From: a virus
Strand: one strand, 5' to 3'
IMG/VR virus record: IMGVR_UViG_3300042562_000704
Span: 1-45,529 of that record
Length of the DNA stretch: 45,529 bases
Numbering within the stretch: position 1 is the stretch's first letter; every line of letters begins with the position of its first letter. This document shows, piece by piece, positions 32,945 through 44,835 of the stretch. The translations under genes and the position numbers were made by a program. The notes beneath the pieces are model-generated. The model saw nothing but the letters and a program-made list of their open reading frames with translations. It was not told where the DNA came from and ran no database searches.

Positions 32945-33439
32945 TTAAAACGGGTAAATTATTTTTTCTTTTTTTTCTTTAATTGATTTCCAGTCTTTTT
33001 GTAATTTTTCTTTTACAGCTAAACGGATAAAATGATTTATATTTACTCCATAAGATTCTAAAATAGATAAACTATTCATTTGAGTTTCAGAAAATCTAAT
33101 TGTCTTACTTTTAGTTAGTTGTTGTAATTTATTAGGCTTTGTAGTTGTTGTTTTTTGCTCCTTTTTTTTACTACCTCCAACTTGTAAATTCAATCCATTT
33201 ATTATAGAATTATATTTACTAATATAAATTTTTTCATTTATAAATAAATATTCAAACTCACATTCTTCAATAATATCAAATTTATGGTTATCAACACCGT
33301 ATTCAATAAATGAACTATATAAAAGTCTTTGTGATTTACATCTAAGATTTCTGTATACCTTCCATCTATATTCTATATCAGATGATTGACCAATATAAAC
33401 TTTTCCAATTGGTGATGTTATTTTGTAAATTCCTATCAT
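32945..33439 (-). CDS. GIY-YIG endonuclease fused to ribbon-helix-helix-like domain
   Basis: A 164-aa protein. Residues 1-90 form a GIY-YIG nuclease domain (IGIYKIT...VYIGQS, conserved Tyr, Arg, Glu and a terminal GLNLQVGG). The C-terminal part has KTIRFSETQMNSLSILESYGVNINHFIRLAVKEKL, a strand-helix-turn-helix like CopG/Arc ribbon-helix-helix proteins, where homing nucleases usually carry NUMOD/HTH modules. The nuclease half is clearly related to the GIY-YIG protein at 42635. Probably a free-standing homing endonuclease placed just upstream of dnaB, behind a structured leader. Confidence 0.82.
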   Translation of the reverse strand: MIGIYKITSPIGKVYIGQSSDIEYRWKVYRNLRCKSQRLLYSSFIEYGVDNHKFDIIEECEFEYLFINEKIYISKYNSIINGLNLQVGGSKKKEQKTTTTKPNKLQQLTKSKTIRFSETQMNSLSILESYGVNINHFIRLAVKEKLQKDWKSIKEKKEKIIYPF

Positions 33440-33449
33440 TATAAAAATA

Positions 33450-33545
33450 CCGACTAATTACAAAGGCTTACCCACTCGATACGATTGTATCTATTGGCAA
33501 TGTAATTAATCGGATTATTTTTAAAGTTTTTCATAGTGAGTAAGC
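33450..33545 (-). promoter_or_regulatory. Structured leader with interleaved stems (pseudoknot or switch)
   Basis: Read on the minus strand from the predicted start: segment A GCTTACTCACT (33545-33535) pairs with A' AGTGGGTAAGC (33476-33466), 11 bp with one G-U. Segment B CCGATTAATTAC (33513-33502) pairs with B' GTAATTAGTCGG (33461-33450), 12 bp with one G-U. A small hairpin (GATAC/GTATC) lies at 33491-33478. The order A-B-A'-B' cannot be drawn as nested hairpins, so it must be a pseudoknot or two alternative folds. The 3' end is 10 bases from the ATG. Confidence 0.6.
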
Positions 33546-33549
33546 ATTA

Positions 33550-33580
33550 CAAATGTAATAAATATTTTTTTAAAAACAAA
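33550..33580 (-). promoter_or_regulatory. Host-type promoter for GIY-YIG/dnaB operon
   Basis: Minus strand: TTTG (33580-33577), 19 nt, TACATTTG (33557-33550), an exact match to the Bacteroidota sigma consensus. The predicted start, about 33543, is right at the first base of the structured leader. Confidence 0.75.
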
Positions 33581-37811: not shown

Positions 37812-37841
37812 ATTATATTTATTTAATTATTAATAAATAAA

Positions 37842-37973
37842 GCCACCACCAATAAGACATGAACGAACTTAATGATGATGGCTTCGGCTAGTAAACCCCT
37901 TTACTTAGACCAATGTGTTTTTTAGAATGCGGGTAATATGAATATGTTGATGTCATTTGTTTAGGGGTTTTAG
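37842..37973 (-). promoter_or_regulatory. Leader of the SF2-helicase operon with two stems
   Basis: Minus strand: CTAAAACCCCT (37973-37963) faces AGGGGTTT (37900-37893), 8 bp, and GCCATCATC (37882-37874) pairs with GGTGGTGGC (37850-37842), 9 bp using G-U pairs, followed by a U-rich stretch. The wobble pairs work only on the minus strand, so the RNA is minus-strand. Nested, not pseudoknotted as far as I can see. Confidence 0.45.
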
Positions 37974-38438: not shown

Positions 38439-38470
38439 TTTGCATAGAAAGAAAAAAGAATATATATTTG
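38439..38470 (+). promoter_or_regulatory. Host-type promoter for plus-strand early genes
   Basis: TTTG (38439-38442), 20 nt, TATATTTG (38463-38470), consensus for the Bacteroidota primary sigma. It would make a leader of about 145 nt before the ATG at 38621. Confidence 0.78.
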
Positions 38471-38487
38471 CCACAGATAATTATTAC

Positions 38488-38618
38488 GTGAGAGTTTTAA
38501 TTACTAAAAAATACAAATTTATTTTACAAAATATTAGCTAAGTCTAACGAGATTATCCCCAACAATCTAAACTCTCACATCCGAAAGGATTTGGGGGTAG
38601 TCTTGTTTTTAAACAAGA
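38488..38618 (+). promoter_or_regulatory. Structured leader with interleaved stems and start-proximal hairpin
   Basis: A GTGAGAGTTT (38488-38497) pairs perfectly with A' AAACTCTCAC (38569-38578). B ATTATCCCCAA (38552-38562) pairs with B' TTGGGGGTAGT (38591-38601), 11 bp with two G-U. Between A' and B' sits ATCC-GAAA-GGAT (38579-38590), a GNRA-tetraloop hairpin directly stacked on both. TCTTGTTT/AAACAAGA (38601-38618) forms another hairpin ending two bases before the ATG. A-B-A'-B' order means pseudoknot or switch. Confidence 0.65.
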
Positions 38619-38620
38619 TT

Positions 38621-39358
38621 ATGAATATAAATGCTTATCAAATAGAATATCATATCTCTCAGAAAGAACTGAAGGAATATGCTACATTCTGTTATTTTAA
38701 GTATTTATATCGTAATGGCTGCATATACAACTATACATCCGTTAAATTAGCCACAAAGTGCAAGTATAGCGCTTCTTTTATTCGTAAGAGTATAAAGACT
38801 TTTATTGCTAAAGGATGGTGTAGAATGCACGGAGATAATCTTATATTTAATAAATCAGCAAGTTTTAACGGAACAACATCAGAAATAAAATTATATGACA
38901 ACGCTAACATAAAAAAATGCAGCATAAAGGAGATATTAGAATATTTCAATTTGCAAATTATTAAACTACATGACTCTAAGTTAAGTAGGTTAAAAAAATT
39001 AAAGTCGGACCTTAAATCTAAAAAAGCCACAGTTAGACATAGAGCGGAAAACTATGCTGATTCAATAAACAAAAGAACAGAAGCGGAAAGGGCTAAACTT
39101 CCAAACGAAACGACGAGATTAATCTTAACCAACAAAAAATTAACTAAGATATTTAAGTGTAGTGCAGGTAAGGCAAGTGGTATTGTAAAGTCTCTCGAAC
39201 TGGATGGATTCATTAAGGTACATAGAGAAACAAAGAAAGGCTGGACTCCTGTAAAGGTAACAAGCGGACACATGAAACATCTAAAAGAGATGGGTGTAAG
39301 CTTTGGCTTGAGTAATTGGATATTTAGAGTACTACCCCTTGAATTTACTATATGTTAG
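38621..39358 (+). CDS. Winged-helix DNA-binding protein (regulator or replication initiator type)
   Basis: A 245-aa basic protein with two winged-helix-like parts: residues about 20-75 (YNYTSVKLATKCKYSASFIRKSIKTFIAKGWCRMHGDNLIF) and 165-215 (TNKKLTKIFKCSAGKASGIVKSLELDGFIKVHRET), joined by a Lys-rich helix. The start chosen is the ATG at 38621 immediately after the leader hairpin; a TTG at 38591 would put coding inside the structured leader. As first gene of the plus-strand set behind a host promoter, it is probably an early transcriptional regulator or initiator. Confidence 0.65.
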   Translation: MNINAYQIEYHISQKELKEYATFCYFKYLYRNGCIYNYTSVKLATKCKYSASFIRKSIKTFIAKGWCRMHGDNLIFNKSASFNGTTSEIKLYDNANIKKCSIKEILEYFNLQIIKLHDSKLSRLKKLKSDLKSKKATVRHRAENYADSINKRTEAERAKLPNETTRLILTNKKLTKIFKCSAGKASGIVKSLELDGFIKVHRETKKGWTPVKVTSGHMKHLKEMGVSFGLSNWIFRVLPLEFTIC

Positions 39359-42570: not shown

Positions 42571-42627
42571 ATGAATGTATTAAGTTTATTTGACGGATGT
42601 AGTGGTTTATTTCTTATATTTGAGTAA
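42571..42627 (+). pseudogene. Remnant start of a C5-cytosine methyltransferase
   Basis: Encodes MNVLSLFDGCSG and then runs into unrelated sequence and a TAA. MNVLSLFDG is the conserved start (motif I) of C5 DNA methyltransferases, and the full gene begins only 0.8 kb downstream with LNVLSLFDGASG. The amino acids are nearly identical (10 of 11 over the shared stretch) while most third bases differ. The homing endonuclease gene follows directly, so this is probably the 5' stub of an interrupted methyltransferase gene. Confidence 0.6.
42589..42622 (+). promoter_or_regulatory. Possible host-type promoter for the homing endonuclease
   Basis: TTTG (42589-42592), 22 nt, TATATTTG (42615-42622). The spacing is one base beyond the usual 19-21. 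It lies inside the methyltransferase remnant and would give a near-leaderless mRNA starting about 42629. Confidence 0.4.
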
Positions 42628-42634
42628 AAAAAAT

Positions 42635-43393
42635 ATGTCTAAAATAATTGGAATATACAAGATAACTAATCCTAAAGGAGCAATTTACATAGGTCAATCA
42701 GTTAATTGTTTGAAAAGAAAAAATGCTTATAAATCATTAAAATGTGAAAATCAACAAAAAATATATAATTCACTTATAAAATATGGATGGGTTAATCATG
42801 TTTTTGAAATAATAGAAGAGTGCTGTCCAGAATTGCTTAACGAAAAAGAAAAAGAATATATTTTATTATACAATTCAACCAACCCAAAAAACGGATTAAA
42901 TATATGCCACGGAGGTATTGGTTCTTTTGGTAGAGTTAATAAAAACAAAGGAAAAACAAACGTATTGTCTCAAGAAACAAAGGATAAAATAAGTAAGAAA
43001 TTATTAGGCAACGTTCCTTGGAATAAAGGCATAAATTCTTCTAATGAAACTAGGAACAAGATAGTTGAGTCACATAAAATAAGAACCGATGTATATAAAA
43101 AAGAAATAAGTGATAAAATAAAGAGTTCAGTTAAGAAATTGTGGGAAAACGAAGAGTATAGAAAAAAACAAACCAAACAGAGAACTCAAAAAAGGGGTAA
43201 GTATCGTAAAGGTATAAAAAGAGATAAGTTAAAAATAAAAATAGATTTAGGCGCATTTAAAGAAGATTATTTAAACTATATGACAATTAATGAAATATGC
43301 AATAAGCATAATTTATCTTCACCAACAATTTATCGTATTATAAAAGAAAACAATATAAAAAAGAGAGGTTATAAATGCAACAAAAACAACTAA
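42635..43393 (+). CDS. GIY-YIG homing endonuclease with NUMOD and HTH
   Basis: A 252-aa protein from the ATG at 42635 (an in-frame ATG at 42590 would read through the methyltransferase stub). Residues 1-95 are a GIY-YIG domain (IGIYKITNPKGAIYIGQS, conserved Arg, Glu and Asn). The middle has NUMOD3-like repeats (LSQETKDKISKKLLGN, SNETRNKIVESHKI), then Lys-rich linkers and a C-terminal HTH (INEICNKHNLSSPTIYRIIKENNIKKRGYK). Typical of free-standing homing endonucleases. It overlaps the next gene's start by 19 bases. Confidence 0.9.
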   Translation: MSKIIGIYKITNPKGAIYIGQSVNCLKRKNAYKSLKCENQQKIYNSLIKYGWVNHVFEIIEECCPELLNEKEKEYILLYNSTNPKNGLNICHGGIGSFGRVNKNKGKTNVLSQETKDKISKKLLGNVPWNKGINSSNETRNKIVESHKIRTDVYKKEISDKIKSSVKKLWENEEYRKKQTKQRTQKRGKYRKGIKRDKLKIKIDLGAFKEDYLNYMTINEICNKHNLSSPTIYRIIKENNIKKRGYKCNKNN

Positions 43394-44835
43394 ACGTCCT
43401 TAGTCTATTCGATGGCGCGAGTGGAGGACAACAAGCCTTAGACAGGTTAAAAATAAAAGTAGATAACTACTATGCAAGTGAGATAGATAAATACGCTATA
43501 CAAGTAACTATGGCTAACTATCCAAACACTATACAATTAGGTAGTGTAATAGATGTAGATGTTAGTAAGTTAGAGAAAATAGATTTACTGTGTGGTGGCA
43601 GTCCCTGTCAATCATTCTCATTTGCGGGTAAACGTAAAGGAATGAGTACGAAGGATAGTATTGAGATACTTACATTGGAACATTACTTGGAGCTTAAAAA
43701 CCAAAACCTTGAATTTGAAGGTCAATCCTATCTATTTTGGGAGTATATGAGAATATTAACTGATATAAGAAAGGTTAATCCTAATGTTAAATTCTTACTT
43801 GAGAATGTAATAATGGGAGAGAAATGGCAAAGGATATTAACTCAAGCTATTGGTATAAACCCTATCGAAATCAACTCTGCTTTATTATCGGCACAGAACA
43901 GAAAGCGCCTATACTTTACAAACATAGGAGCAGAACAAGATGGTTTATTTGGAGATTTAAAATGTATGATACCGCAACCAAAAGACAAAGGAATATTATT
44001 AAAGGATATACTTGAGGCGGAGGTGGATAATAAGTATTATTTAAGTGATAAAACAGTAAATACACTTGTTAGACACGGAAATAATATAATTGGTAAAGAT
44101 GAAAATCCGTTAAGAAGTTGCACCATACACGCAAACTATTTTAAAATGGGTGGTAGGGACCAACAACATGTAATTGATGATAGCAAAATAGTAGCCATGC
44201 GAGGAAGAAACCCAGAGAATACATCAGACAGAACTAAAGGGTGTCCTACTAAACAAATGCTAGAAGCAAGAGAAGATGGTAAAACTAATTGTATTACTAC
44301 TGTTCAAAAAGATAACTTAGTTTATACTAAATATAGCGAAAATCAATTTAATAATAAAAGGCTTAATGAAACTATAGATTTACATAAAGACAATTTAGAA
44401 GAAGGAACAATGATAGATTCTTACAATAAATCAATTCATAAGGATAAGTCTATAACTATAACAACAAGAGTAAACGCATCAAGCAGCACTCATATAGTAC
44501 ATACTTCTGTTTTAAACAAAAACCAAAAAGATAACTTAGTTTATACTGCAAATTATTTACAATATGGAGATGGTTTTGCTCAAGATAGTAGAGCTTACTA
44601 TGAAAATGGTAAGCATGAAACTTTAGATGTTAAAGATAAGAGACCTAAAGTTTTAAGTGAATCAAGAATAAGAAGATTAACTCCTTTAGAATGCTGTAGG
44701 TTACAAACAATGAGAGATGATTATTTTATTAAAGAAAGCAAGGATATTGTAAGTGATTCCCAAAAATATCGCCAAATTGGAAATGGTTGGACGATTGAGG
44801 TCATAGCTTACATCTTTAGCTTCTTAAAACCTTAA
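43375..44835 (+). CDS. dcm: C5-cytosine DNA methyltransferase
   Basis: A 486-aa protein with motif I LSLFDGASGG, catalytic Cys78 in GGSPCQSFSFAGKRKGM, ENV (LLENV), QNRKRLYF, and the C-terminal motifs LTPLECCRLQ and QIGNGWTIEVI. It transfers methyl from SAM to cytosine C5. Between about residues 200 and 435 lies an unusually long target-recognition region that contains a duplicated QKDNLVYT segment. No restriction partner is visible, so it is probably solitary. Its start codon lies inside the homing endonuclease gene. The gene symbol is used only for the family. Confidence 0.93.
   Translation: MQQKQLNVLSLFDGASGGQQALDRLKIKVDNYYASEIDKYAIQVTMANYPNTIQLGSVIDVDVSKLEKIDLLCGGSPCQSFSFAGKRKGMSTKDSIEILTLEHYLELKNQNLEFEGQSYLFWEYMRILTDIRKVNPNVKFLLENVIMGEKWQRILTQAIGINPIEINSALLSAQNRKRLYFTNIGAEQDGLFGDLKCMIPQPKDKGILLKDILEAEVDNKYYLSDKTVNTLVRHGNNIIGKDENPLRSCTIHANYFKMGGRDQQHVIDDSKIVAMRGRNPENTSDRTKGCPTKQMLEAREDGKTNCITTVQKDNLVYTKYSENQFNNKRLNETIDLHKDNLEEGTMIDSYNKSIHKDKSITITTRVNASSSTHIVHTSVLNKNQKDNLVYTANYLQYGDGFAQDSRAYYENGKHETLDVKDKRPKVLSESRIRRLTPLECCRLQTMRDDYFIKESKDIVSDSQKYRQIGNGWTIEVIAYIFSFLKP

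Follow-up and report, generated by a model that had tools for sequence, protein, structure and literature searches.

A promoter followed by interleaved RNA stems before a winged-helix-like phage gene: a possible pseudoknotted transcription attenuator whose layout recurs in other phages

What does a phage gain from placing two long interleaved RNA stems directly in front of a gene? The question arises at positions 38439-38621 of the IMG/VR virus record IMGVR_UViG_3300042562_000704, a Bacteroidota phage, which we analysed over 45,529 nucleotides (positions 1 to 45,529, hereafter the window). This region, here called the 38k leader, runs up to the ATG of an open reading frame (ORF) of 245 aa (38621-39358, + strand) with a weak C-terminal match to MarR-type winged helices and an N-terminal part resembling a helix-turn-helix. 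The sequence-only reading of the window had described in the leader four strands in the order A-B-A'-B', had likened it to a second leader near position 33450, and had proposed a control principle common to both. Our own reading, to which we give about an even chance of being right, is that the region combines a promoter with a pseudoknotted transcription attenuator gating the 38621 winged-helix gene.

The leader opens with an exact consensus match to the sigma-ABfr-type promoter of Bacteroidota (38439-38470, + strand), made up of a -33 TTTG (38439-38442), a 20-nt spacer and a -7 element TATATTTG (38463-38470). TTTG/TANNTTTG is the primary promoter consensus of Bacteroidota, transcription starting 4-5 nt past the -7 element (PMC6847099), and the same spacing in this phage predicts a start at 38475-38476 on the + strand. 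Exact matches to this consensus occur three times in the window (0.44 expected by chance), and the 33450 leader also has a perfect promoter, with a 19-nt spacer. The -7 element of the 38k promoter lies 158 nt from the start codon. This is within the 90-160 nt used here in defining a class of A-B-A'-B' pseudoknot-terminator leaders, whose other features are a pair of long interleaved stems that outscore shuffles and a U-run at the end of B' followed by an ATG within about 20 nt. In the divergent intergenic region upstream of this promoter, the - strand carries a terminator-like hairpin, TCCGAGCC-AAT-GGTTCGGA followed by TTTTCTTTTT (38314-38296). The non-coding stretch 37812-37966, upstream of a leftward 86-aa gene, belongs to a block with 95.6% identity to the relative (most other blocks, 80-90%); it holds a 13-bp stem (37885-37873/37851-37839) with a T-rich run after it, and perhaps is a leader of its own.

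The fold of the 38k leader was examined by reading the sequence and by enumerating all stems, with no bulges permitted and G-U pairs counted in B. Both approaches return the perfect 10-bp stem A proposed earlier, with GTGAGAGTTT (38488-38497) as its 5' strand and AAACTCTCAC (38569-38578) as its 3' strand. Stem B had been given as 11 bp (38552-38562/38591-38601); this is the inner part of a stem that, with G-U pairs, extends to 17 bp (38546-38562/38591-38607). An A+T-rich linker L1 of 48 nt (38498-38545) separates the 5' strands of A and B, and a 6-nt linker L2 (38563-38568) leads to A', which lies within the loop of B. As had been noticed, a GNRA hairpin, AUCC-GAAA-GGAU (38579-38590), fits exactly into the space from A' to B', and A', hairpin and B' follow one another without an unpaired base. 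A U-rich run, UUGUUUUU (38603-38610), stands at the end of B', with the ATG following at 38621. Part of the run is taken into B when this stem has 17 bp, and with B as 11 bp the structure is terminator-like; the sequence-only reading had overlooked both the run and this likeness of B to a terminator. All these elements are on the + strand, and no ATG occurs between the transcription start and the gene.

The interleaved pair exceeds what shuffled sequence produces. Its best A+B stacking score, -46.4, was reached by none of 300 dinucleotide shuffles (mean -19.2, standard deviation 2.9, best -28.4). In a scan of both strands that took in the window and a 56.6-kb relative (about 100 kb), the 38k pair ranked first and the 33450 leader third. 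Among 850 candidate start codons of the phage contigs analysed the 38k leader was again first, and the next four were also leaders immediately before a start. A run of TTTT or longer follows B' in all six of the best leaders, against a background of 40 of 231 starts; for TTTTT no more than 25 nt from a start codon, the background in these phages is 18 of 231 ORFs.

The sequence-only reading had also described a set of helices abutting without gaps, closed by an 8-bp hairpin ending two bases short of the ATG. Such a hairpin exists, but it has 9 bp (AGTCTTGTT/AACAAGATT, arms 38599-38607/38612-38620 within 38599-38620, + strand), reaches the ATG at 38621 and excludes the outer part of B'. The gapless packing holds for A', the GNRA hairpin and B', but the terminal hairpin, which is weak, cannot be added to the full set. 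Because the terminal hairpin shares 38599-38607 with B', the fold with the 17-bp B, that with the terminal hairpin and that with the 11-bp B are alternative states that cannot all coexist, and only a 6-bp form of the hairpin is compatible with the 11-bp B. The computed energies are -26.5 kcal/mol for the 17-bp B with the GNRA hairpin, -22.2 for A with the GNRA and terminal hairpins, and -20.7 for the 11-bp B with the GNRA hairpin and the 6-bp hairpin. Before B' has been made, the computed minimum-energy fold is A-A' with the GNRA hairpin; once B' is present, B dominates.

Attenuation is the simplest reading of this layout, because B and the U-run are terminator-like, A' lies in the loop of B, and A-A' forms first with B dominant afterwards. 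RNA polymerase would start near 38475, and A-A' with the GNRA hairpin would be the first stable helix of the nascent RNA. As B' emerges it could pair with B into a strong stem with the U-rich run right after it, the form of an intrinsic terminator, whose loop would be held by A, that is, by the 5' part of the same transcript. The outcome, a polymerase stop yielding an RNA of about 135 nt or read-through into the gene, would then depend on whether B-B' appears early enough, reaches its full 17 bp or is lost to the terminal hairpin, and the balance might be shifted by a phage or host protein or by coupling to translation. What the sequences show are the promoter motif, the two stems and their significance, the U-run and the return of the layout at other phage genes; the start of transcription, termination by B, modulation by A-A' and the factor that shifts the balance are what we infer. 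As in known intrinsic-terminator attenuators and transcriptional riboswitches, a leader between promoter and gene has competing folds and ends in a strong stem and a U-run. It differs from them in that the terminator loop pairs with the 5' part of the transcript as a pseudoknot, that no mutually exclusive anti-terminator is seen, and that no Rfam family matches.

Several observations weigh against attenuation. The 17-bp B absorbs much of the U-run (38603-38607), leaving UUUAAAC, and its loop of 28 nt is large for an efficient intrinsic terminator. A strict terminator scan, which admitted only loops of 3-8 nt, did not list the B stem. Finally, no homologue was found of either the 38k leader or the 38621 protein, so that the leader stands as a single sequence and contributes no covariation of its own.

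The terminal hairpin brings in the chief rival, translational control, which we regard as unlikely, though the best placed of the alternatives: the folded leader, through B' or the terminal hairpin beside the ATG, would restrict ribosomes, and the winged-helix protein or another phage protein would bind the pseudoknot to repress or release translation. The hairpin does reach the ATG and compete with B, and in Flavobacterium structure near the start codon is known to tune initiation (PMC6847099). There is also the precedent of the T4/T2 gene 32 mRNA, another phage leader with a pseudoknot ahead of a gene of DNA-replication type, in which the pseudoknot mediates autogenous translational repression, gp32 acting on its own mRNA. 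That pseudoknot is 67 nt away from the start and gp32 binds single-stranded DNA (PMC3014915), whereas the stems here have 10 and 17 bp with a U-run after them, and the protein is of winged-helix type. Hairpins at the start site are used by homing-endonuclease genes of T4-like phages, and I-TevI, mobE and segB resemble our case in having RNA structure right before a phage gene, the 33450 leader itself preceding a GIY-YIG gene; theirs are simple hairpins that hide the ribosome-binding site, with neither pseudoknot nor U-run, and the 38k gene is no endonuclease. What is conserved past B', however, is the U-run and not an A-rich initiation region, while the terminal hairpin is not conserved in the other leaders and, taken alone in the 38k leader, is no better than chance (z = -0.6).

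If the 38k leader must be judged as one sequence, the 33450 leader need not be, a point that had also escaped the sequence-only reading. It extends on the - strand from the -7 element to the start codon of the GIY-YIG gene (33437-33557), and a near relative of the window has a different GIY-YIG gene with a 33450-like leader before it. Searching IMG/VR with patterns from these two leaders retrieved at least 12 distinct members, which precede GIY-YIG and HNH/NUMOD4 genes and, once, a Lin1244-type gene; the family has no match in Rfam. In its alignment 93.7% of cells are paired, vs 79% in shuffles and about 35% when slid, and two-sided changes affect 7 of 11 A pairs and 5 of 13 B pairs. By this pairing and these changes, the A-B-A'-B' fold of the family is an RNA structure under selection. 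The two leaders of the window share the promoter, the interleaved stems, the U-run and the ATG, and their likeness in topology thus stands as far as the interleaving is concerned. It does not extend to the additional hairpin, which lies on opposite sides of A' (on the side of B' in the 38k leader, on that of B in the 33450 one), or to the leader ORF often present in the 33450-type family. Membership of the 38k leader in that family was rejected: a covariance model of 12 members gives it at best 14.7 bits, vs 103-128 for true members, and this match covers only the end of the promoter and a chance stretch, in line with the earlier statement that the two sequences are unrelated.

Two further rivals have their starting point in this family. 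Helix A of its members starts exactly 4 nt past the -7 element, the predicted first transcribed base (PMC6847099), as might be expected of a small stable phage RNA or a 5' cap structure that protects the mRNA or acts in trans without gating a gene. We see hardly any chance of this, as stem A of the 38k leader begins about 13 nt into the transcript and every leader stands immediately before a start codon. The second rival takes up the leader ORF. At window positions 33534-33454 (- strand), and in 12 other leaders, an ATG-started frame begins right past helix A and stays open to within about 15 nt of the main ATG or past it, other frames being usually stopped; three different frames run across the conserved TTACATTG block, the open frame being the one that follows the ATG. 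A ribosome on such a short ORF would open B and lead to read-through or re-initiation. In leaders with such ORFs ribosomes may indeed do the switching, through translation coupled to read-through, but since the 38k leader and several others have no such ORF this cannot be the general mechanism, and as an account of the 38k leader it is quite improbable. A leader-peptide attenuator was discarded for the 38k leader for want of an ATG between transcription start and gene, though in other members such a peptide looks genuine.

Does the layout occur beyond these two leaders? We scanned promoter-like sites of phage contigs for the order promoter, A, B, A', B', U-run, ATG. The leaders so found, unrelated in sequence, precede ERF recombinase genes (L020 6402, L093-L095), a 96-aa ORF (L026 5467), BT4734-type primase genes (L095 4634, L127 5344), a gene upstream of a ParB-like gene (L120), the lead genes of ERF operons (L125, L128), a DnaD-like winged-helix gene (L096), a replication-like ORF (L116) and a DUF6291 gene (L071). 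At a score of -28 or below there are 14 leaders, vs 0.15 expected from shuffles, a count partly ascertained since some contigs had been retrieved by the 33450-family pattern. Because members were sought by the features of the class itself, it is the shuffle controls and a test on cultured phages that carry weight. In six cultured phages, taken with no selection for the motif and covering at least half of each genome, we found 2 leaders vs 0.05 expected, both at annotated starts. That of Flavobacterium phage 11b (L179 33621-33738) precedes the operon of a DUF6291 gene; that of Flavobacterium phage FCL-2 (L181 37475-37596) precedes a Phg_2220_C gene, some homologues of which are annotated as replication protein. 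In FCV-1 (L183 476-600) the FCL-2 locus has a different version of the leader, heading an operon that includes an HTH_36 gene and a PIF1-type helicase, and helix A is changed on both sides with its pairing retained. Likewise, two elemo haplotypes (L184/L186) have the same promoter region, linker and B, but A strands that differ and are complementary in each case (TGAGAGCT/GGCTCTCA and GTGAGATG/CATCTCAC). All these leaders before replication operons are unannotated. No convincing leader was found in the parts searched of B124-14, FPSV-S1, crAss001 and crAss002, and the open-licence papers covered contain no description of such leaders. The proposal of a shared control principle is thus supported: both leaders of the window follow perfect promoters and the layout recurs in other phages far above shuffles. 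Its recurrence with differing sequences points to an undescribed RNA switch.

These comparisons also bear on two remaining rivals. A and A' could be inverted operator sites in the DNA, for instance for the 38621 protein, with the RNA fold incidental: the A arms are exact 10-bp inverted copies with no further exact copy in the window, and they stand beside a likely DNA-binding gene. The related families, however, covary with G-U pairs and keep the spacing from promoter to helix, and A differs in sequence at one locus in different phages with the interleaving kept, which an operator would not require; we rate this a very small chance. Put elements consist of two hairpins, which counts against the other rival, an antiterminator in which the pseudoknot stays on its polymerase and makes it ignore downstream terminators. 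The precedent is HK022 putRNA, likewise a structured RNA with which a phage transcript begins, which suppresses downstream pausing and termination (PMC9378689). Here, by contrast, the fold closes with its own terminator-like stem and U-run right before the gene, and some leaders stand before a lone mobile endonuclease gene, for which antitermination over a long range would be of no obvious use, so that we accord this rival a small chance.

Searches for relatives of the 38k leader added no known RNA. A DNA search gave chance AT-rich matches only, the pattern CCCCAACAATCT-N-TTGGGG had six matches in IMG/VR, all by chance, and the record of the closest relative ends within the homologous intergenic region. 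Above the Rfam gathering scores, which cover group I introns and riboswitches, the whole window gives one tRNA only, and a permissive Rfam search of the leader gave chance matches only. Three known RNAs were considered and rejected: a group I intron, whose P3-P7-P3'-P8-P7' topology the leader resembles (no Rfam match, no exon); a hepatitis delta virus-like ribozyme, similar in strand order but not fitting the stem lengths and the 48-nt linker; and a type III toxin-antitoxin RNA (no tandem repeats in the leader region, and a winged-helix-like product).

As to the gene itself, the MarR-type winged-helix match of its 245-aa product has an E of 1.6e-4, under the curated cut-off, and there are marginal matches to families of phage transcription regulators, DnaD-like proteins and replication initiation. 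Searches of IMG/VR (two peptide sets), 84,980 genomes (two sets), INPHARED phages, plasmids and seven related phage records gave no homologue, and an AlphaFold model was uninformative (predicted local distance difference test, pLDDT, 35). The product is probably a replication-type DNA-binding protein, and the gene probably heads a replication-type gene block.

Two other features were seen in the window and related contigs. At 42571-43400 (+ strand) the start of a Dcm-type methyltransferase (MNVLSLFDGCSG) precedes a GIY-YIG ORF (ATG 42635), with LNVLSLFDGASGG restarting in the ORF after that (43375), which looks like an endonuclease insertion adjoining its target gene. Intergenic palindromes some 90-110 bp long, TATAACGG...CCGTGTTATA and variants that end in GTTATAAGCTG, recur at about 35130-35040 of the window (- strand) and at about 7870-8000 of contig L002, with similar ones in L007, L026, L027, L063 and L081; they precede small cargo-like ORFs and a methylase, and perhaps are cassette boundaries.

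To our knowledge, little is known of how genes are timed in Bacteroidota phages. One might tentatively propose, though we think it somewhat more probable that this goes too far, that these phages carry an undescribed and widespread device, a terminator whose loop is locked by the 5' segment of the transcript itself, with its architecture kept while its sequence turns over. Genes for replication initiators, primases, recombinases and homing endonucleases would have it in common as the gate before them, and it would act as a phage-wide switch for timing or for starting replication, read by a shared factor. If this is true, the promoter-pseudoknot-terminator cassette before replication genes would be a switch acting after initiation, with a role like that of lambda N or of HK022 put, yet a built-in part of each operon. 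Its occurrence in the cultured Flavobacterium phages 11b, FCL-2, FCV-1 and elemo makes it directly testable, and selection on architecture rather than on sequence could explain why such leaders have been absent from homology-based RNA searches.
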